From: a virus
IMG/VR virus record: IMGVR_UViG_3300044641_007115
Coordinates: 1 to 64,000 of that record
DNA: 64,000 bases
Direction: 5' to 3' (one strand)
Below, in pieces: positions 35,953 to 62,572 of the stretch; position 1 is the first letter of the stretch, and every line of letters begins with the position of its first letter. The translations under genes were made by a program, and so were the position numbers. A model generated the notes under the pieces. The model worked only from the letters and a program-made list of their open reading frames with translations, searched no databases and was not told the DNA's origin.

Positions 35953-36546
35953 ATGCAGAACACTCTAATCCCAATGGTCGTAGAACAGTCTCCGCGCGGT
36001 GAACGCTCCTACGACATCTATTCCCGTCTTCTCAAAGAGCACATCATTTTCCTTGGCACCGCCATCGACGACGACGTTGCCAATCTGGTCGTCGCACAGC
36101 TTCTTTTCCTTGCGGCGGAAGACCCGGACAAGGACATCAGCATGTACATCAATTCGCCGGGCGGATCGATCACGGCGGGCCTTGCTATTCTCGATACGAT
36201 GAATCTGGTCAAGCCCGACATCGTGACCTATTGCGTCGGTCAGGCCGCGTCGATGGGTGCTGTGTTGCTGGCGAACGGTGCCAAAGGGAAACGCTTTGCC
36301 TTGCCGCACGCACGCATCCTGATTCACCAGCCGTTGATGCGCGGACTCAGCGGACAGGCCAGCGACATCGACATTCACGCGAAAGAAATCTTGCGCATGC
36401 GCGAAATTCTCAACGGAATCTTAGCGACCAAGACCGGACAACCGCTCGAAAAGATCAGCGCGGACGTGGATCGCGACTACATCTTGGAAGCGGATGCCGC
36501 TGTCAAGTATGGCCTTGTGGACAAGGTGATCGAGAAACAGCCGTAA
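35953..36546 (+). CDS. clpP: ATP-dependent Clp protease proteolytic subunit ClpP
   Basis: 197 aa, full length. Ser100 in QAASMGA, His125 in RILIHQP and Asp171 in the ISADVDRD segment are in the canonical Ser-His-Asp order. The N-terminus ([20 protein letters not shown]) matches bacterial ClpP including the processed leader. Forms tetradecamers that degrade proteins fed by ClpX/ClpA. No Clp ATPase in the window, so the host's is probably used. Compare the phage tmRNA at 44892. Confidence 0.95.
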
Positions 36547-37116: not shown

Positions 37117-37764
37117 GTGACTAGATCCCAAGCCGGGCGGCTAGGTGCCGCAATTACAGCCCACCGATTCCGACAGGAAGCCATCAGATCATACTACGAA
37201 TCTCCCAATCGATGTTTGCATTGTGATGAAATCATCCATGTTTCAGAAGGCGCGCGGGTCGCAGAGATTCGAAAAAAGAAGTTTTGTGGGCAATCTTGTT
37301 CAGCAATCTACAACAACACACGACGGAATCGACAGACACCTACATGTCAAGTTTGCGGCACTCACGTCACCAAAGGATCAGAAAAGTTCTGTTCTGTAAC
37401 ATGTCACAAACAACACCGGCATACTGAATACATCCAAAGATGGAAAGCTGGATTGGAAGATGGCGTTAACGGTGGAGGAATGTCGATTAGCCCTACTATT
37501 CGGAAATATCTTTTCGAACAGAGGGGACCGGCTTGCTGGAAATGTGGATGGTCACAAGTGAACCCGGTCACAAATCGGGTTCCTCTTCAAGTAAATCATA
37601 TTGATGGTAACCCACTCAATAACAAAGAAGAGAACCTTGAACTCATCTGCCCGAATTGCCACAGTATTACTCCAAATTTCGGAGCATTGAATATGGGCAA
37701 CGGTCGAGAAGTTCGTCGCGCTCGATATCACCAAAAGAAAGTTGGAGCCGGAAGTGGCACTTGA
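37117..37764 (+). CDS. HNH homing endonuclease
   Basis: 215 aa from GTG 37117 (TAAATC 5 nt before). Two CxxC zinc pairs in the first half (CLHCDE, CGQSC; CQVCGT, CSVTC) and an HNH module near the end: LQVNHIDGNPLNNKEENLEL then ICPNCHSI (His-Asn-His/Cys arrangement). The coding sequence looks richer in A+T than its neighbours, suggesting recent transfer. Its last 22 nt overlap the tRNA-Thr(TGT) gene on the opposite strand. Confidence 0.85.
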   Translation: MTRSQAGRLGAAITAHRFRQEAIRSYYESPNRCLHCDEIIHVSEGARVAEIRKKKFCGQSCSAIYNNTRRNRQTPTCQVCGTHVTKGSEKFCSVTCHKQHRHTEYIQRWKAGLEDGVNGGGMSISPTIRKYLFEQRGPACWKCGWSQVNPVTNRVPLQVNHIDGNPLNNKEENLELICPNCHSITPNFGALNMGNGREVRRARYHQKKVGAGSGT

Positions 37765-37819
37765 AGCCACATCATTCGACCTTACAAGGATCGCGCTCTG
37801 CCTCTTAAGCTATTCCGGC
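37743..37819 (-). tRNA. tRNA-Thr (TGT)
   Basis: Acceptor GCCGGAA / TTCCGGC, anticodon arm CGATC-CTTGTAA-GGTCG, T arm GTGGC-TTCAAGT-GCCAC, encoded T-CCA. Overlaps the 3' end of the HNH gene. Confidence 0.9.
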
Positions 37820-37832
37820 GTTGGTTGAATTT

Positions 37833-37908
37833 TGGAGCCGCTGGACGGTTACGATCCGTCGCCTAACCCTTACCAAAGGTTCGGTCTGCCGATTGATCCT
37901 ACAGCGGC
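37833..37908 (-). tRNA. tRNA-Thr (GGT)
   Basis: Acceptor GCCGCTG / CAGCGGC, anticodon arm AACCT-TTGGTAA-GGGTT, T arm GACGG-ATCGTAA-CCGTC (first T-loop base A instead of T), encoded T-CCA. Confidence 0.8.
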
Positions 37909-37918
37909 GTATTTTGTT

Positions 37919-37994
37919 TGGAGCCGGTGACGACAAATTGAAGTCGTGACTGTGGGGTACGAATCCACTATTTTGCCACTTAAACTACACCGGC
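37919..37994 (-). tRNA. tRNA-Thr (CGT), slightly irregular
   Basis: Acceptor GCCGGTG / CACCGGC, anticodon arm GTGGA-TTCGTAC-CCCAC with one A.C mismatch next to the loop, T arm ACGAC / GTCGT with an 8-nt loop, encoded T-CCA. A real but divergent tRNA. Confidence 0.7.
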
Positions 37995-37997
37995 ATG

Positions 37998-38099
37998 TGG
38001 CGGGGAGAATCGGATTTGAACCAATGATAACCATCACAAAACGGCTGTTGCCAGCAAAAGGCATGCAACGGTGCCTTAACCAAGCTAGGCTATCTCCCC
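37998..38099 (-). tRNA. Class II tRNA-like gene with enlarged anticodon arm
   Basis: Acceptor GGGGAGA / TCTCCCC, T arm ATTGG-TTCAAAT-CCGAT and encoded G-CCA are normal. D-arm region resembles tRNA-Ser. Total length is 102 nt because the anticodon arm has a ~13-nt loop (stem GTTGC/GCAAC) or a bulged stem giving TTTTGCT as loop, and a variable arm AGCC/GGTT follows. Identity (Ser GCT or Gln TTG) unresolved. Confidence 0.5.
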
Positions 38100-38110
38100 A
38101 TCAGGCTTAA

Positions 38111-38160
38111 TGTCTCATATCGTAGACAATAACCGGGGTTACTGTACAAGATATGAGACA
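38111..38160 (-). repeat. Long hairpin inside the tRNA array
   Basis: Perfect 11-bp inverted repeat TGTCTCATATC / GATATGAGACA, with TAACC/GGTTA pairing inside the loop. Lies between the class II tRNA-like gene and tRNA-Asp. May guide processing of the array. Confidence 0.6.
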
Positions 38161-38167
38161 TCAAACT

Positions 38168-38245
38168 TGGCGGTCCTGACGGGATTCGAACCCGTGATCT
38201 TCACCGTGACAGGGTGACGGGGACGGCCAACTCCCCTACAAGACC
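38168..38245 (-). tRNA. tRNA-Asp (GTC), copy 1
   Basis: Acceptor GGTCTTG / CAGGACC, anticodon arm TCACC-CTGTCAC-GGTGA, T arm ACGGG-TTCGAAT-CCCGT, discriminator G, encoded CCA. One nt separates it from the second Asp tRNA. Confidence 0.9.
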
Positions 38246-38246
38246 G

Positions 38247-38320
38247 TGGCGGGGCATACGGGAATCGAACCCGTGGTACACCATAGACAGTGGTGCCGTT
38301 TGCCACTAACGAAATGCCCC
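38247..38320 (-). tRNA. tRNA-Asp (GTC), copy 2
   Basis: Acceptor GGGGCAT / ATGCCCC, anticodon arm CACCA-CTGTCTA-TGGTG, T arm ACGGG-TTCGATT-CCCGT, discriminator G, encoded CCA. Sequence differs from copy 1, so not a recent duplicate. Confidence 0.85.
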
Positions 38321-38324
38321 AAAA

Positions 38325-38850
38325 CTTGCGGAAGGAATGCACACTGGCCGGTGTCGCTCCGACTAACCGTGGGAAGCATCGACTTTACAGTCGCCCCACA
38401 ACAACCGACTTTGGAGGAAGGTGCTCTTTCTTAAGCTAGAAAGTCGGCACCGGCCAGCGAAATTTCGGACAAGCAAAGAAAGTACAGATCGACTAAGAAT
38501 TGGACTCGAACCAACTTCTCCGGGCGTGCGGCCCGGCGCTTTAACCATGTTAAGCTACATCTCCGAATGGTGGGGACAGATAACCAATCTGAGGCGGCTT
38601 GTCCTGAAAACTATTATGACACGAAGCAAAGCCGTTCAAAGCAAGAACCAACTATCAGAAGCATCAAAGTGCCTGTCAAATGTCACCGTACAGGTCTGAC
38701 GGTCACCCGGTTGCCCGGTAGCGAAGCATTCCCCATAACACGGGGAAGACCGAACTAGTAAGCCCGGCCATCTGTTTGTAACCAGATAATCTTCCGACTT
38801 CGGCTTAGAACGGCTCTGCCGGAAGTACTTATACTTCGTATCGTGGAATC
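38325..38850 (-). ncRNA. Candidate structured RNA, or tRNA remnants, within the tRNA array
   Basis: 526 nt without standard tRNAs or a credible gene. Dense in inverted repeats on the minus strand: 10-bp CTGGCCGGTG/CACCGGCCAG enclosing CCGACTTT/AAAGTCGG and GTGGG/CCCAC (38340-38455); CCGG-GCAA-CCGG with a GNRA loop (near 38708); TTCCCC/GGGGAA (near 38735); CTTCCG/CGGAAG (near 38800). Could be a large phage RNA of the kind found beside tRNA clusters (GOLLD- or ROOL-like) or a run of decayed tRNAs. Confidence 0.4.
38491..38565 (-). pseudogene. tRNA-like sequence with unpaired acceptor
   Basis: D arm (GCTT...AAGC), anticodon arm CCGGG-CCGCACG-CCCGG and T arm GTTGG-TTCGAGT-CCAAT are well formed. 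The acceptor strands (GGAGATG and TCTTAGT) do not pair, there is no CCA, and position 33 is C rather than T. Anticodon would be GCA. Either a decayed tRNA-Cys or part of the structured RNA around it. Confidence 0.45.
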
Positions 38851-38851
38851 T

Positions 38852-38931
38852 TGGTGGAACACGTGGGAATTGAACCCACCTGAATATCCTCATTGCGAAT
38901 GAGGCGACCACCCCATGCAGTCCCGTGCCCC
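38852..38931 (-). tRNA. tRNA-Ala (CGC)
   Basis: Acceptor GGGGCAC / GTGTTCC with the G3.U70 pair of alanine tRNAs, anticodon arm CCTCA-TTCGCAA-TGAGG, T arm GTGGG-TTCAATT-CCCAC, A-CCA encoded. Close paralogue of the GGC copy. Confidence 0.85.
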
Positions 38932-39024
38932 GTTTTGGTAAACCGAGATTCCTTCCGCAAACTATTCACTTGTCAAAGAACACTTGTGATCGTACAACAC
39001 AGAAAACTTGTGATCGTCCGATCT

Positions 39025-39104
39025 TGGTGGAACACGTGGGAATCGAACCCACCTGAATATCTTCGATGCCATCGAAGCGGCCACCCCATGCAGCCCCGTG
39101 CCCC
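39025..39104 (-). tRNA. tRNA-Ala (GGC)
   Basis: Acceptor GGGGCAC / GTGTTCC with G3.U70, anticodon arm CTTCG-ATGGCAT-CGAAG, T arm GTGGG-TTCGATT-CCCAC, A-CCA encoded. Differs from the CGC copy mainly in the anticodon arm. Confidence 0.85.
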
Positions 39105-39113
39105 ATTTGAATT

Positions 39114-39190
39114 TGGTGGACCGTGCCGGGATCGAACCGGCTACCTTCCGCTTGCAAGGCGGATGCTCTCCCAAAATGAGCTAACGGCCC
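39114..39190 (-). tRNA. tRNA-Ala (TGC)
   Basis: Acceptor GGGCCGT / ACGGTCC with G3.U70, anticodon arm TCCGC-CTTGCAA-GCGGA, T arm GCCGG-TTCGATC-CCGGC, A-CCA encoded. First tRNA of the leftward array. Confidence 0.95.
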
Positions 39191-44408: not shown

Positions 44409-44678
44409 ATGCCGGACAATTTTGCCGTTTTCAAAACCAATCTTGAGTCGCCCGCGACGAACGCATACTTGGTCGCCCCGAACGACAGTGCCGATCTGCC
44501 TGTCACGACTAGAGCGCTCATGGTCAATGCGGACGGTAGCGTCAAAATGGAATTCGCCAAAGATCCATCTGGATCATTCGTGACGATTGCGCTGAAAGCT
44601 GGTCAAACCTACCCATTCCGTATTCGAAAAATCTATTCGAACGGCACCAACGCAACTGGTATCACAGCACTGTACTAG
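44409..44678 (+). CDS. Small virion-associated protein
   Basis: 89 aa, one compact beta domain: PATNAYLVAPNDSADLPVTT, RALMVNADGSVKMEFAKD, TIALKAGQTYPFRIRKIYSN, GTNATGITALY. This ordering (APNDSxDLxxxxRALxVxxxGxVK... GQxYPxRxxxIxxxGTxAxxIxALY) is common for small phage virion proteins, location unspecified. Stop overlaps the convergent microprotein by 4 nt. Confidence 0.65.
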   Translation: MPDNFAVFKTNLESPATNAYLVAPNDSADLPVTTRALMVNADGSVKMEFAKDPSGSFVTIALKAGQTYPFRIRKIYSNGTNATGITALY

Positions 44679-44797
44679 TAGTCGGTCACGCGGCGGATCA
44701 TGGCGGCAACCCGGCGGCGCTGATTCACCTTACCAACGTGCATCACAATCGCGGCGATTGCAAGCAAAAACAACAACAACAAACTGTAGTTCATCAT
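44675..44797 (-). CDS. Small single-helix membrane protein, predicted leaderless
   Basis: 40 aa (MMNYSLLLLFLLAIAAIVMH, then a basic tail with VNQRRR and IRRVTDY). One N-terminal membrane helix. The first ATG lies exactly 6 nt past a consensus TATACT whose TTGACA is 17 nt further up. Promoter, spacing and helix together support a real gene, although there is no ribosome site. Function unknown. Confidence 0.65.
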   Translation of the reverse strand: MMNYSLLLLFLLAIAAIVMHVGKVNQRRRVAAMIRRVTDY

Positions 44798-44803
44798 AGT
44801 TCT

Positions 44804-44832
44804 AGTATAGAAGTTTTGTACCTATATGTCAA
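44804..44832 (-). promoter_or_regulatory. Near-consensus sigma70 promoter, leftward
   Basis: TTGACA (44827-44832), 17-nt spacer, TATACT (44804-44809), minus strand. Confidence 0.85.
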
Positions 44833-44860
44833 TAGGTCCCTGTGGAAAACTTCCAAGAGA

Positions 44861-44889
44861 AACAAAAACGCCGGACCCGAAGGTCCGGC
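44861..44889 (-). terminator. Terminator of the tmRNA gene
   Basis: On the minus strand GCCGGACC-TTCG-GGTCCGGC followed by GTTTTTGTTTCTC. The UUCG tetraloop gives extra stability. Confidence 0.9.
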
Positions 44890-44891
44890 AT

Positions 44892-45195
44892 TCTTGCGAA
44901 GGTCTTTCTTTAACAAGGCACCCTCAGTTCCCCGGATGGGTGCAATTAAGCAGCCATCGCCAGAACATTGCTGTTGGCAGTTATTGTTTTACGCTGTTAC
45001 CCGAATCCGCTCATAAAACTTCATCGGTTTCGGTAGTCGTCTACCGGTCCACTCCACTTTCCCAACTCACTGCCAATCGAATTCCGGGACGCCCCCGTAT
45101 GGTGCCCCCTTTCGAGAGCGTGTTTTGGTGGAGGCGGCGGGAGTCGAACCCGCGTCTTGCCAGCGTCAGAATCGGATCATCGCGGACAACTCTAA
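44892..45195 (-). ncRNA. ssrA: Circularly permuted tmRNA
   Basis: Order on the minus strand is acceptor piece then coding piece. The acceptor piece (about 45195-45126) ends with T arm GCGGG-TTCGACT-CCCGC, then CGCCTCC-A-CCA. After a 29-nt spacer the coding piece starts at 45096 with GGGGGCG, which pairs with CGCCTCC and includes the G3.U70 alanine identity pair. It continues with the tmRNA D-arm signature GGAATTCGATTGG. A tag frame at 44978-44946 encodes ANSNVLAMAA then stop TAA, preceded by AACAATAACT. Rescues stalled ribosomes. Probably co-transcribed with the gene upstream and processed in two pieces. Confidence 0.85.
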
Positions 45196-45196
45196 T

Positions 45197-45541
45197 TTAG
45201 CACACCACAGAATTTGATGCAAGCTGTTCTTCGTCGGACATGGCAGCAAATTTCTGCGGAGTTGGACCACCGAAGGGCGGCGTCAACATGGACTTCAGCA
45301 AGGCTTCGCGCACGTTCCGGCCCCGGAACATGTTGTTCGCACCTTGCCCCGGTTCCAGCCGGGCGACAGTGGTGCCGGTCGCATCGGTTTCGATAGACGG
45401 CCAATCACTGTCAATCCAATCGAGCATGTCATCGGCGGTGATGTTGCGCTCCGCATGTTTGACATATTTCGACGGATCGAACTGCCCGGCTGGAATCCAT
45501 ACTTTATGGTCGGGGCGGTCGATCAGACTGACTTCGTACAT
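45197..45541 (-). CDS. Hypothetical protein
   Basis: 114 aa from ATG 45541, which overlaps the upstream stop by 1 nt (the long upstream extension in this frame lies in another gene). Contains WIPAGQFDPSKYVKHAERNI and NNMFRGRNVREALLKSMLTP. No recognised family. Its stop is 2 nt from the predicted tmRNA acceptor piece, so the two are likely one transcript. Confidence 0.5.
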   Translation of the reverse strand: MYEVSLIDRPDHKVWIPAGQFDPSKYVKHAERNITADDMLDWIDSDWPSIETDATGTTVARLEPGQGANNMFRGRNVREALLKSMLTPPFGGPTPQKFAAMSDEEQLASNSVVC

Positions 45542-45909
45542 CAATCGACTTCCCACCCCGCTTCCACCATTTCCAGCGTAGAGGAATACGTCAACCGCTG
45601 AGTCGGAAGAGGAAAATCCGGCACGTCGCGGTTTGACTGCATGACAAACGTCACACTCATCCCGGTGTCTTCCTTCTTCTCCAGCTTCGCGTCGAAATGT
45701 TCGAAGAGGCTTCCCAAGTACACTGTGGGTTCCATCAGACCGTTCATCCCAACAACGAAGCCGCATTCCGGGAAACCGCCCGGTTGACGATTCGTCCGAC
45801 GAACGACAGGACAATATGACTTGCCGTTCTTGGATTTGTAGTGATACGACTTCACGTCGATCAGTAACCGAATCTCTTCATGCAAATCGACACCGGGCGA
45901 TGCTGTCAT
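45541..45909 (-). CDS. Hypothetical protein
   Basis: 122 aa, unassigned. Beta-rich, with KSYHYKSKNGKSYCPVVRRT and GFPECGFVVGMNGLMEPTVY. Middle gene of a three-gene unit (45914, 45541, 45197) with 1-4 nt spacings. Confidence 0.5.
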   Translation of the reverse strand: MTASPGVDLHEEIRLLIDVKSYHYKSKNGKSYCPVVRRTNRQPGGFPECGFVVGMNGLMEPTVYLGSLFEHFDAKLEKKEDTGMSVTFVMQSNRDVPDFPLPTQRLTYSSTLEMVEAGWEVD

Positions 45910-49073: not shown

Positions 49074-50183
49074 TTAGAATGAGGTCAATGGCACAAACCC
49101 GCCGGACGGAGAGAACTTCAGTGACAGGCCGGAAAGAGCCTTGAACTGACCCTTCACAACCATAATCCCGTGCTTACCTTCAAGCGATGGGAATGCTGTC
49201 TTGTCGATGGTAAAAGCAACTTGACCCTTAGCCACAAGGGTGGTGGTCGTCTGGTGCAATTGCACACCGGCGTCATTGAAGAACGTCAGGGTTGCAACTT
49301 GAGGGAAGCCCATTGCATTCGATAGAGCGACGCCTGTGGCGTTGTTGTTCCGAAGATCATAGACCAAGTTCAATGTATCCTTGTCTGGCGTCACACCCGG
49401 CGTAGCGGCTTCCATAGCCTCACCACGGCTGTTCGGGAACTCATAGGCGATGCTGAAACCGACTCCGGTACCGTTGACTTGCGGAAGCACTTCAGCGTGT
49501 CCTGTAGTGACGTTCGGATGTGGGACATATGGATCGGTGAGTACCAACAGACTCACACCCTTCGGCGGGATCGTCACAATCGAATCACTGCCATAGATGT
49601 TGTTCGCGACCAATGACAATGGTGTCCCGGTCGGGCGAACAAACTGGACCCGCATGATCGCTGTGTCATTGCCGGGATTCACGAAACGAAGAGTAGTCTT
49701 CCATCCGCCACCGGCGGCGATGTGCGGCACTTGCCGCTGAATCGCGGGCGGGAGTTGTGACAGCCGGGAATCAATGACTTCCAAATTCAAAGTGATCGTC
49801 TGCGACCAATTCTGAACACCGTTGCTGGTATACGTGAACGTCACCGGTAGAAACGGATACTTTCCAACACCCAATGACAGAGAACCGGGGTTAATCGCCA
49901 GTTCGATGGTAGCCGGGAAATTGGGATAGATCAGCGCGGCGGACGGGGTTACAGTCACACCGGGCGGAAGAAGGTTGGCAAAAGAATTGACCTGAACAAA
50001 AACGGATTGGTTGTTCGTGCCGGGCGGCAATGCCACCGTGATCGGCCACGTCAATCGGGTTGCACTGGCTTTATCGGCCACAGCATTGATTTCAAGCGGA
50101 CTGATCGTAATGGGCGGTGGGGTCTGACCAAAAACACAAACGGAAGCAAAAAGCAAATAGAGAGTCAAAGTGATGTTGCGCAT
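49074..50183 (-). CDS. Secreted beta-sandwich protein, Acidobacteriota-like
   Basis: 369 aa with a signal peptide (ITLTLYLLFASVCVFGQ). The mature protein has VPHIAAGGGWKTTLRFVNPG, DSIVTIPPKGVSLLVLTD, LNLVYDLRNNNATGVALSNA, then VKGQFKALSGLSLKFSPSGG. This order (PHIAxGGGWxTT, xATGVALxN, GxxAFxL, GLxLRF) is familiar from many secreted proteins of Acidobacteriota. It is unusual in a phage and suggests acquisition from the host. Function unknown. It stands apart, with a terminator upstream. Confidence 0.7.
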   Translation of the reverse strand: MRNITLTLYLLFASVCVFGQTPPPITISPLEINAVADKASATRLTWPITVALPPGTNNQSVFVQVNSFANLLPPGVTVTPSAALIYPNFPATIELAINPGSLSLGVGKYPFLPVTFTYTSNGVQNWSQTITLNLEVIDSRLSQLPPAIQRQVPHIAAGGGWKTTLRFVNPGNDTAIMRVQFVRPTGTPLSLVANNIYGSDSIVTIPPKGVSLLVLTDPYVPHPNVTTGHAEVLPQVNGTGVGFSIAYEFPNSRGEAMEAATPGVTPDKDTLNLVYDLRNNNATGVALSNAMGFPQVATLTFFNDAGVQLHQTTTTLVAKGQVAFTIDKTAFPSLEGKHGIMVVKGQFKALSGLSLKFSPSGGFVPLTSF

Positions 50184-60043: not shown

Positions 60044-60261
60044 ACACTTTTTTCGATTTCTTCGAAGACCGAATCGGGGACCTTTTCAAAAAAGACGACG
60101 CCGGGTCCGCAATTGTGTTGAATCACAATCATCCCGGCGTCTTCGAGCAATTTCCGCACATCGTCTGGTCCATGAATGAACCGTGGATCAATGTTCGGTG
60201 TTCTGTCCGTTCGCTTCTTCCGCGTCAATTGTTGGCAGATTTTCCATAGGATTTCCCGCAT
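60040..60261 (-). CDS. Hypothetical protein
   Basis: 73 aa from ATG 60261 (an upstream start in this frame would overlap the ligase gene much further). Contains NIDPRFIHGPDDVRKLLEDA and IVIQHNCGPGVVFFEK. Unassigned. Overlaps the RNA ligase 3' end by ~70 nt in another frame. Confidence 0.4.
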   Translation of the reverse strand: MREILWKICQQLTRKKRTDRTPNIDPRFIHGPDDVRKLLEDAGMIVIQHNCGPGVVFFEKVPDSVFEEIEKSV

Positions 60262-61357
60262 GTGGCATGATAACACGATTTTTTCGAGCACCAAGCAATC
60301 TTTCAAGAACTTCCGTGGACGCCGCCAATACAGCCGACCGAATAGAAGACACACGACCGCTACGCAACTGGAACAGTGCCGCTGAATATCGAGTCTTCAG
60401 TGCTTCGATAGCGAAGTCCTTCTGAACAGGAATATGTCGAATCTTGTCATAGGCTTCTTCGAGTTCGATCACCAGACCATTCAACGCTTCGGCCATCTCA
60501 TCATATTGCTGTTGATATTCAGGGAAGTAGCTGAGCACTTCACTGGTTTCCCCGGCCCGGATCAAATCAATGATGCGACGCTGACCGAAACCGTCCTTGG
60601 CGTGATGTACCAGAACGTAGGCGGGAGACTTGATCTTCACCCGCCGGAAATTCTGATCGACAACTACAAAGCCTTCGCCCGATTCAGGAGTCAGCTTTTG
60701 CGCCGCCGCGATGACATCATCGATACTGGACAGCGAATACTCTTTGACCACCGGCGGCAATAACGGATGACCAAGATCATCGACTTCCGCTTCCTGCATG
60801 GTGACACGATTGCGCGCGCCCAAGAACACCAAATCCGGTTCCGGGTATTGACATACAACACGATTGAACGGGGAAATCAACTCGAACATGAATGTCCAAT
60901 CTGTGTCTAGTTCCTCAACATCATACCCACGATCTTTCCAGATCCGCCAGAACAGTTCAGAGAACGTGAACGGATGGACATCGACCAGACCACCCGCATT
61001 CGGGCTACCTTTGGTGCTGACATTCCATTGTCCTCCCCAATACCAGACGATCATGAGAGATCCATCGACCTTCTCTTGGACACGGGCGGACTTCCAATCA
61101 ATCGAATCGGCCCACGACTCTCCATGATTGGCGAAACGGAAAAACGGGGCGGCGACGGTGTTCCAGTTGTCGCCACCATTCAAAATCATCCCACGGGATT
61201 CCTTCACAATCGGATCATTCGGATTGGCTTCTAGTTGGTCATAACAGAAGTGCCAAAGCCCCGAATGCTCCGGGTGTTCCTTCGCTCGAATACCACGGTT
61301 CACCAAGGTTTCGACCGTCTCTTCTCCCGCCCGTAGTACACGCTGAAGTTCTAGCAT
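60188..61357 (-). CDS. rnlA: T4 Rnl1-type RNA ligase
   Basis: 389 aa from ATG 61357 (a TAAATG ends 6 nt upstream; the ATG 9 nt further up is possible). Motif I KVDGS with the nucleophile Lys near residue 96 (99 from the longer start, equal to T4 Rnl1 Lys99), ESRGMIL upstream, EGFVVVDQNFRRVKIKSPAY holds motifs IV and V. Joins RNA ends and in T4 repairs cleaved tRNA. No polynucleotide kinase is seen beside it. Confidence 0.9.
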   Translation of the reverse strand: MLELQRVLRAGEETVETLVNRGIRAKEHPEHSGLWHFCYDQLEANPNDPIVKESRGMILNGGDNWNTVAAPFFRFANHGESWADSIDWKSARVQEKVDGSLMIVWYWGGQWNVSTKGSPNAGGLVDVHPFTFSELFWRIWKDRGYDVEELDTDWTFMFELISPFNRVVCQYPEPDLVFLGARNRVTMQEAEVDDLGHPLLPPVVKEYSLSSIDDVIAAAQKLTPESGEGFVVVDQNFRRVKIKSPAYVLVHHAKDGFGQRRIIDLIRAGETSEVLSYFPEYQQQYDEMAEALNGLVIELEEAYDKIRHIPVQKDFAIEALKTRYSAALFQLRSGRVSSIRSAVLAASTEVLERLLGARKNRVIMPHAGNPMENLPTIDAEEANGQNTEH

Positions 61358-61363
61358 GCCAAC

Positions 61364-61409
61364 CATTTAGGTGACGCCAGTTGACGGAAAACGAGATTTC
61401 TGACATACT
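61364..61409. promoter_or_regulatory. Divergent promoters between RNA ligase and membrane protein
   Basis: Leftward late-type TAAATG (61364-61369), 6 nt before ATG 61357. Rightward TTGACG (61381-61386), 17-nt spacer, CATACT (61404-61409), ATG 61418 eight nt later. Confidence 0.6.
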
Positions 61410-61846: not shown

Positions 61847-62572
61847 ATGAAGGATTCTCTAGGCGACCGGATGAAAGGGAAGTACGAAGACCCTTTCCGA
61901 AACGTACTTCCCCAACGGACCAATCTCATCATTCGCATCGACGGACGGGCATTTCACACGTTCACGAAACCGTTCAAACGTCCTTACGACGAAGAGATTC
62001 ATGAAGCTATGTCCTTTGCCACCCGGATGGTGTGCGAAGAGATCGGTGGATGCAAGTTCGCATACACCCAAAGCGACGAAGCCAGCTTTCTTGCCACCGA
62101 CTACGATACACACGAAACACAGATGTGGTTCGGCGGGAACAAGGCTAAGATCGAAACCATTGCGGCGTCGGCATTCACAGCGTTCTTCAACTACTCCATG
62201 ATGAAGATTTCCCCTACTCTCATCGCACAGTTTGATGCCCGCGCCTTCATCATTCCAACACAGCACGAAGTCGTCAACTACTTCATTTGGCGGCAACAGG
62301 ATGCCATCCGCAACAGCGTGTCGATGTTGGCCCGTCACCACTTCAGTGCCAAGCGGCTACACAAAGTCTCATCGAAAGATGCTATCGACCTCTTGCGTAA
62401 AGAGAAGAAAGTTCGGTGGGAAGAAGATACCCCTGCATGGTTCCGCCGGGGAACTGCCCTCTACAAAAAAGCACCGGGCCGTCACAAAGTCCCAAACTGG
62501 TATACTGACAAAAACATCCCGGAGTTCGTCGGGAATCAAAATTTCGTGCGGCAACATATGCCTATCGAATAA
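61847..62572 (+). CDS. Thg1-like 3'-5' RNA polymerase
   Basis: 241 aa, full length. RIDGRAFHTFTKPF at 30-43 and YTQSDEASF at 73-81 carry the metal-binding Asp residues (Asp32, Asp78) of tRNA-His guanylyltransferase and Thg1-like proteins. NSVSMLARHHFSA and the central NYSMMK fit too. These enzymes add nucleotides to tRNA 5' ends, and the bacterial type repairs 5'-shortened tRNAs. TAGAAT lies 6 nt before the ATG. Confidence 0.9.
   Translation: MKDSLGDRMKGKYEDPFRNVLPQRTNLIIRIDGRAFHTFTKPFKRPYDEEIHEAMSFATRMVCEEIGGCKFAYTQSDEASFLATDYDTHETQMWFGGNKAKIETIAASAFTAFFNYSMMKISPTLIAQFDARAFIIPTQHEVVNYFIWRQQDAIRNSVSMLARHHFSAKRLHKVSSKDAIDLLRKEKKVRWEEDTPAWFRRGTALYKKAPGRHKVPNWYTDKNIPEFVGNQNFVRQHMPIE

Follow-up and report, generated by a model that had tools for sequence, protein, structure and literature searches.

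A permuted tmRNA gene on the minus strand

The window analyzed here, 64,000 nucleotides in length, is positions 1 to 64,000 of a 224,490-base virus contig derived from a metagenome (IMG/VR record IMGVR_UViG_3300044641_007115). ARAGORN places a permuted tmRNA at 44855-45219 on its minus strand, with the tag ANSNVLAMAA followed by a stop, and the Rfam model tmRNA_permuted (RF04321) matches 44946-45187 over model positions 1-213 of 213 with 98.1 bits (E 7.7e-18), well above the gathering score of 47, so that the sequence falls within the model family. An earlier note made from the letters of the DNA had proposed a circularly permuted tmRNA, silent as to its strand, and had named a missing hit to permuted models as grounds for abandoning the idea; both programs bear the proposal out, and the missing hit did not occur.

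With its terminator, the gene extends over about 44862..45219, and all its parts lie on the minus strand. The acceptor half precedes the other half, an intervening sequence joining the two. The acceptor piece (45126..45187), delimited by RF04321 and the sequence, comprises a P2 strand, the T arm (45137-45153), the acceptor 3' strand CGCCTCC, and, at its end, an encoded CCA (45128-45126). The 29-nt intervening sequence (45097..45125) is predicted to fold as a hairpin, at -8.8 kcal/mol here and -11.8 in a related contig, L118. The coding piece begins at 45096 with the acceptor 5' strand GGGGGCG (45090..45096), which pairs with CGCCTCC as seven base pairs including G3.U70; this stem, already described in the earlier note, can be read directly from the sequence, and its pair 6-67 covaries. 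Farther along are a 6-bp hairpin, CGGUAG-ACGA-CUACCG (45031..45046), found by RF04321 and by folding and unchanged in L118; the tag reading frame from resume codon GCC to stop TAA (44946..44978), for which ARAGORN returns the same ANSNVLAMAA that had been read by eye; a post-tag helix GCACCC/GGGTGC (44918..44943), with a counterpart in the beta_tmRNA model; and the hairpin of an intrinsic terminator (44862..44897).

Pseudoknots fared less well than the rest of the proposed architecture. A candidate resembling PK1 is present upstream of the tag (44986..45027), where CCGA/UCGG is crossed by an 8-bp helix, GUUUUAUG/CGUAAAAC, and ends 7 nt ahead of the resume codon. Its score, however, is equalled by 4 of 60 shuffled sequences for the window and by 2 of 60 for L118, and sequence variation is too low for covariation, so the folding evidence for this candidate is suggestive only.

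A co-oriented ORF of 114 amino acids with no PHROG family (45197..45541, minus strand) stops about 10 nt ahead of the tmRNA match and itself overlaps the stop of another ORF, 45541-45909; a shared transcript is possible. A strong sigma-70-like promoter (11 of 12; 44804-44832) lies just past that of the tmRNA terminator hairpin and shares its strand; it is followed by a short ORF of about 40 amino acids with a hydrophobic N-terminal stretch (44678-44797, minus strand).

The contig encodes a T4-like set of terminase, portal, gp21 protease, contractile sheath, clamp loader, gp32, and DNA polymerase. Judged by this gene content it is a 224-kb T4-like myophage, as expected from the first reading of the DNA as a phage genome. 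The terminase is about 53% identical (52-53%) to those of Pelagibacter phage Mosig and of Melnitz, and about 53% identical to those of cyanophages, while some structural proteins are nearest to those of phages of Proteobacteria. Elsewhere in the window, ARAGORN finds a cluster of tRNA genes at 37743-39190 on the minus strand (three Thr, two Asp, one Cys, and three Ala), within which Rfam adds a further tRNA match at 38001-38099. A Thg1-like tRNA-His guanylyltransferase (PF04446, phrog_4717; 61847-62572, plus strand) lies near a T4-type RNA ligase (phrog_562; 60188-61366, minus strand); RNA repair functions are possible.

Conservation and pairing across the split point

In related phages, recognized as contigs whose gp32 is 95% identical, the gene is conserved with 85.8% identity, and the lineage is sampled through two distinct versions of it. 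Acceptor pair 6-67 is C-G in one and U-A in the other, a compensatory change, and a T-stem pair is G-C in one and C-G in the other. A run of 71 consecutive alignment columns, around and including the whole tag, is unchanged between versions, and the tag is identical letter for letter in every relative found. Conservation within the gene is thus strongest in the tag frame and the context upstream of it. Loss of the frame among related phages, which had been put forward as evidence against a tmRNA, is not what is seen.

These observations bear on three alternatives to a working phage gene. A metagenomic origin invites the suspicion that a bacterial tmRNA was fused to a phage contig during assembly, but here the gene has an interior position in a 224-kb contig, recurs in one of 184 kb, and is found at 86% identity with alignable flanks in three more contigs of 42-52 kb; artefact is already refuted, barring an identical error in several assemblies, and we give it virtually no credence. 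That the gene might be a passive remnant, either an attachment-site fragment or a recent capture without function, draws on the common use of tmRNA genes as integration sites (PMC11915505), yet the gene is whole, has its terminator, has undergone compensatory changes in related phages that keep it at 86% identity, and sits in a genome of the T4 type. The conservation pattern already disfavors this explanation, which we consider very improbable. Third, the RNA could be a decoy that occupies host SmpB or ribosomes without tagging, after the manner of the RNA of mycobacteriophage DS6A, which consists of a tRNA-like domain only. A tRNA-like-domain RNA resembling that of DS6A inhibits tmRNA (PMC4131195, PMC11915505), and the present phage has no SmpB that we could find. 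A decoy, however, would not need a tag, so the strong conservation of the complete tag frame and of the stretch upstream counts against this role and makes it improbable, if slightly less so than a remnant.

A scan of IMG/VR for the permuted-junction signature returned 102 stretches, most of them permuted tmRNAs according to ARAGORN, with diverse tags. Three pairs, 6-67, 49-65, and 50-64, were left free by the scan pattern, and all three form in 58 of 58 unique phage permuted tmRNAs, with four pair types at each; none of 2000 shuffles matched this. The result is direct evidence that the acceptor stem pairs across the split point. Together with the E-value and the conservation in relatives, the 58/58 pairing at 6-67 places the gene beyond chance. 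Among the scanned contigs, ARAGORN reports the tag ADAELVAA in one of two virus-contig groups, L016 and L018, and ANAFKPEVTVPMSVFADQELVAA in the other; their endings are similar, and the call of the shorter tag may be in error.

Relation to known tmRNAs

Among clade-specific models, beta_tmRNA (RF01850) comes nearest, with 76.1 bits over 44866-45236 and 81.0 bits in L118, both below its gathering score of 84; alpha_tmRNA (RF01849) gives 35.7 bits, against a gathering score of 50. The gene aligns to the full beta model, post-tag helix and terminator included, but differs in an insertion of 32-36 nt ahead of the tag, which is the site of the candidate pseudoknot. We therefore call the gene beta-like in the limited sense of model scores alone.

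Permuted tmRNAs have already been described in phages, and the gene in the window is another member of that group: 402 of 18,146 phage genomes were reported to carry tmRNA, and 53 of 133 unique phage tmRNAs were two-piece, 50 of the 53 coming from marine or aquatic phages (PMC9004378). The closest described parallel is Melnitz, a Methylophilales phage (PMC9004378). There too a permuted two-piece gene resides in a T4-like phage, and there too tmRNA and host differ in lineage, the former being of alphaproteobacterial type and the latter gammaproteobacterial (PMC9004378). In contrast to the window gene, which is nearer to the beta model, the Melnitz tmRNA is alphaproteobacterial and is linked to a glutamine riboswitch, whereas an Rfam search of the window detected no riboswitch; the host phylum also differs from the one we propose below.

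When phage nucleotide records were searched with the gene, only the conserved T-arm/CCA stretch aligned, but the same search pointed to four phages with permuted tmRNAs that their records leave unannotated. Three of these are CcrPW, CcrRogue, and Alcaligenes phage QDWS595 (RF04321 scores of 88-111 bits). The fourth is the Tunturiibacter phage Tunturi_4 (PP885687.1), which scores 79.2 bits. Its permuted tmRNA occurs in a phage that infects Acidobacteriota, as the gene in the window probably does, and supports the feasibility of such an arrangement. It differs in having a long intervening sequence and a 33-residue tag as called by ARAGORN, and in belonging to an 88-kb phage with a different gene set. 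The Tunturi_4 tmRNA comes directly after the gene that encodes a GGQ-domain release factor, so that two ribosome-rescue genes adjoin.

The probable host and its tmRNA

On the plus strand, 8.4 kb from the tmRNA, the phage carries a clpP gene (35953..36546; Pfam PF00574, 271.9 bits), encoding a cellular-type proteolytic subunit with a Ser/His/Asp site. Its nearest bacterial relatives are mostly from Acidobacteriota, with identity up to 75%. Weak relatives of the product of 49074-50183 (minus strand) occur in 17 of 199 genomes of Acidobacteriota, the sole phylum searched; this product is a putative secreted protein with no Pfam or PHROG family and no match among phage records. From these similarities we infer that the host is probably an acidobacterium.

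In Acidobacteriota genomes the tmRNA is one-piece, and ANNNLALAA is an example of its tags. The phage tag resembles these in its ten-residue class, its AN start, and its AxAA end, and differs in ending LAMAA rather than LALAA; the Acidobacteriota genes, moreover, are not permuted. Two surveys looked for exceptions. RF04321 passed its cut-off in 9 of 297 Acidobacteriota genomes, but ARAGORN shows one-piece tmRNAs at eight of these loci and only tRNAs at the ninth (L222). An exact scan for the permuted-junction motif matched 22 of 396 genomes; one-piece tmRNAs or tRNAs account for 15 of the 16 loci inspected, the other, at a contig end, has no call, and the 7 remaining places carry the sequence of tRNA-Tyr matches. 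Permuted tmRNA was rejected for Acidobacteriota hosts on these results, none being confirmed in about 400 genomes (RF04321 on 297, motif scan on 396). The eight one-piece tmRNAs (among L216-L224) that score above the RF04321 cut-off mean that the model alone cannot separate permuted from one-piece genes.

Because no permuted tmRNA was confirmed in those genomes, the phage RNA is probably not of the form of its host, provided that the host is an acidobacterium. The main competing explanation is that the host, for example a beta- or alphaproteobacterium, has a permuted tmRNA of its own and that the phage gene is a captured copy. The beta model as nearest clade model fits this account, as do the structural proteins closest to phages of Proteobacteria. 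Against it, the phage ClpP points to Acidobacteriota, where permuted tmRNA is unconfirmed, and Tunturi_4, an isolated phage of that phylum, likewise has a permuted tmRNA; a terminase that is about 53% identical is a poor guide to the host. A captured host copy is a real but minority possibility.

A ClpP protease in the same genome

The apparent mismatch with the host is one of two less expected features of the system, the other being co-occurrence of ClpP and tmRNA in large phages. PHROG names would make ClpP a head-maturation protease, an assignment set aside since the phage encodes a separate T4 gp21-type protease and would not need ClpP for that task. ClpP is instead proposed as a partner of the tmRNA, the two being encoded in the same genome. 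A search of the phage ORFs for a ClpX-like Walker motif came up empty, so the unfoldase for phage ClpP would have to come from the host. Searches for an SmpB gene likewise gave no match in the phage and none in 26 other virus contigs with permuted tmRNA; SmpB would therefore be that of the host. Both tmRNA and SmpB have been reported from huge phages (PMC7162821).

ClpP is found at more than 200 bits in 8 of the 26 permuted-tmRNA contigs; these eight form four groups by tag and contig, with clpP and tmRNA about 4 kb apart in one of the four. Conversely, among contigs chosen for ClpP, 6 of 12 longer than 100 kb have a tmRNA (permuted in five) and none of six shorter contigs does; as background, permuted tmRNA occurs in 2 of 7 contigs from outside the lineage. 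A ClpP relative is present in Bacillus phage G, a phage that carries ssrA (PMC4131195). Counts such as these, taken without a matched large-phage background and from contigs that are partly related, are a lead and not a result. They nevertheless permit a tentative generalization, one that we think has less than even chances: large phages may repeatedly pair a permuted tmRNA with a cellular-type ClpP, both their own, in a tag-and-degrade module that relies on host SmpB and unfoldase, and in phages of Acidobacteriota the two-piece RNA may work beside the one-piece tmRNA of the host.

Proposed function

In bacteria generally, tmRNA frees stuck ribosomes and marks the unfinished protein for destruction, and both its charging by AlaRS via G3.U70 and its delivery by SmpB are established. 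The gene in the window is, in our judgment, very likely an intact, functional-looking permuted two-piece tmRNA of a T4-like phage that acts in ordinary trans-translation with host SmpB. Leftward transcription, perhaps joint with the preceding ORFs, would end at the intrinsic terminator. The 29-nt intervening hairpin would be excised by the host's tRNA-processing enzymes, to leave acceptor and coding pieces joined through the acceptor stem and P2; two-piece precursors are cut by such enzymes and their pieces then pair (PMC11915505, PMC3985003), and the two-piece tmRNA of Caulobacter works in trans-translation, according to a study cited in PMC3985003. Charged by host AlaRS through G3.U70, the RNA would enter stalled ribosomes with host SmpB, add ANSNVLAMAA, and free the ribosome. 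The tagged peptide would then pass to ClpXP-type proteolysis, with extra ClpP supplied by the phage. An ALAA ending is a protease signal (PMC3985003), of which AMAA would be a mild variant. The suggestion in the earlier note that a dedicated tag might escape host proteases finds no support, because the tag ends in AMAA, near the ALAA of Acidobacteriota, and because the phage encodes ClpP. The benefit to the phage may be that ribosomes and amino acids stay available during mRNA breakdown in infection.

With this gene, the range of permuted phage tmRNAs comes to include a lineage whose hosts are probably Acidobacteriota, which suggests that phages carry the permuted form from one host phylum to another. 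Several publicly recorded phages carry such genes unannotated. The co-occurrence with ClpP offers a testable idea, that phage tmRNA recycles ribosomes while feeding tagged fragments to a protease to whose supply the phage contributes.
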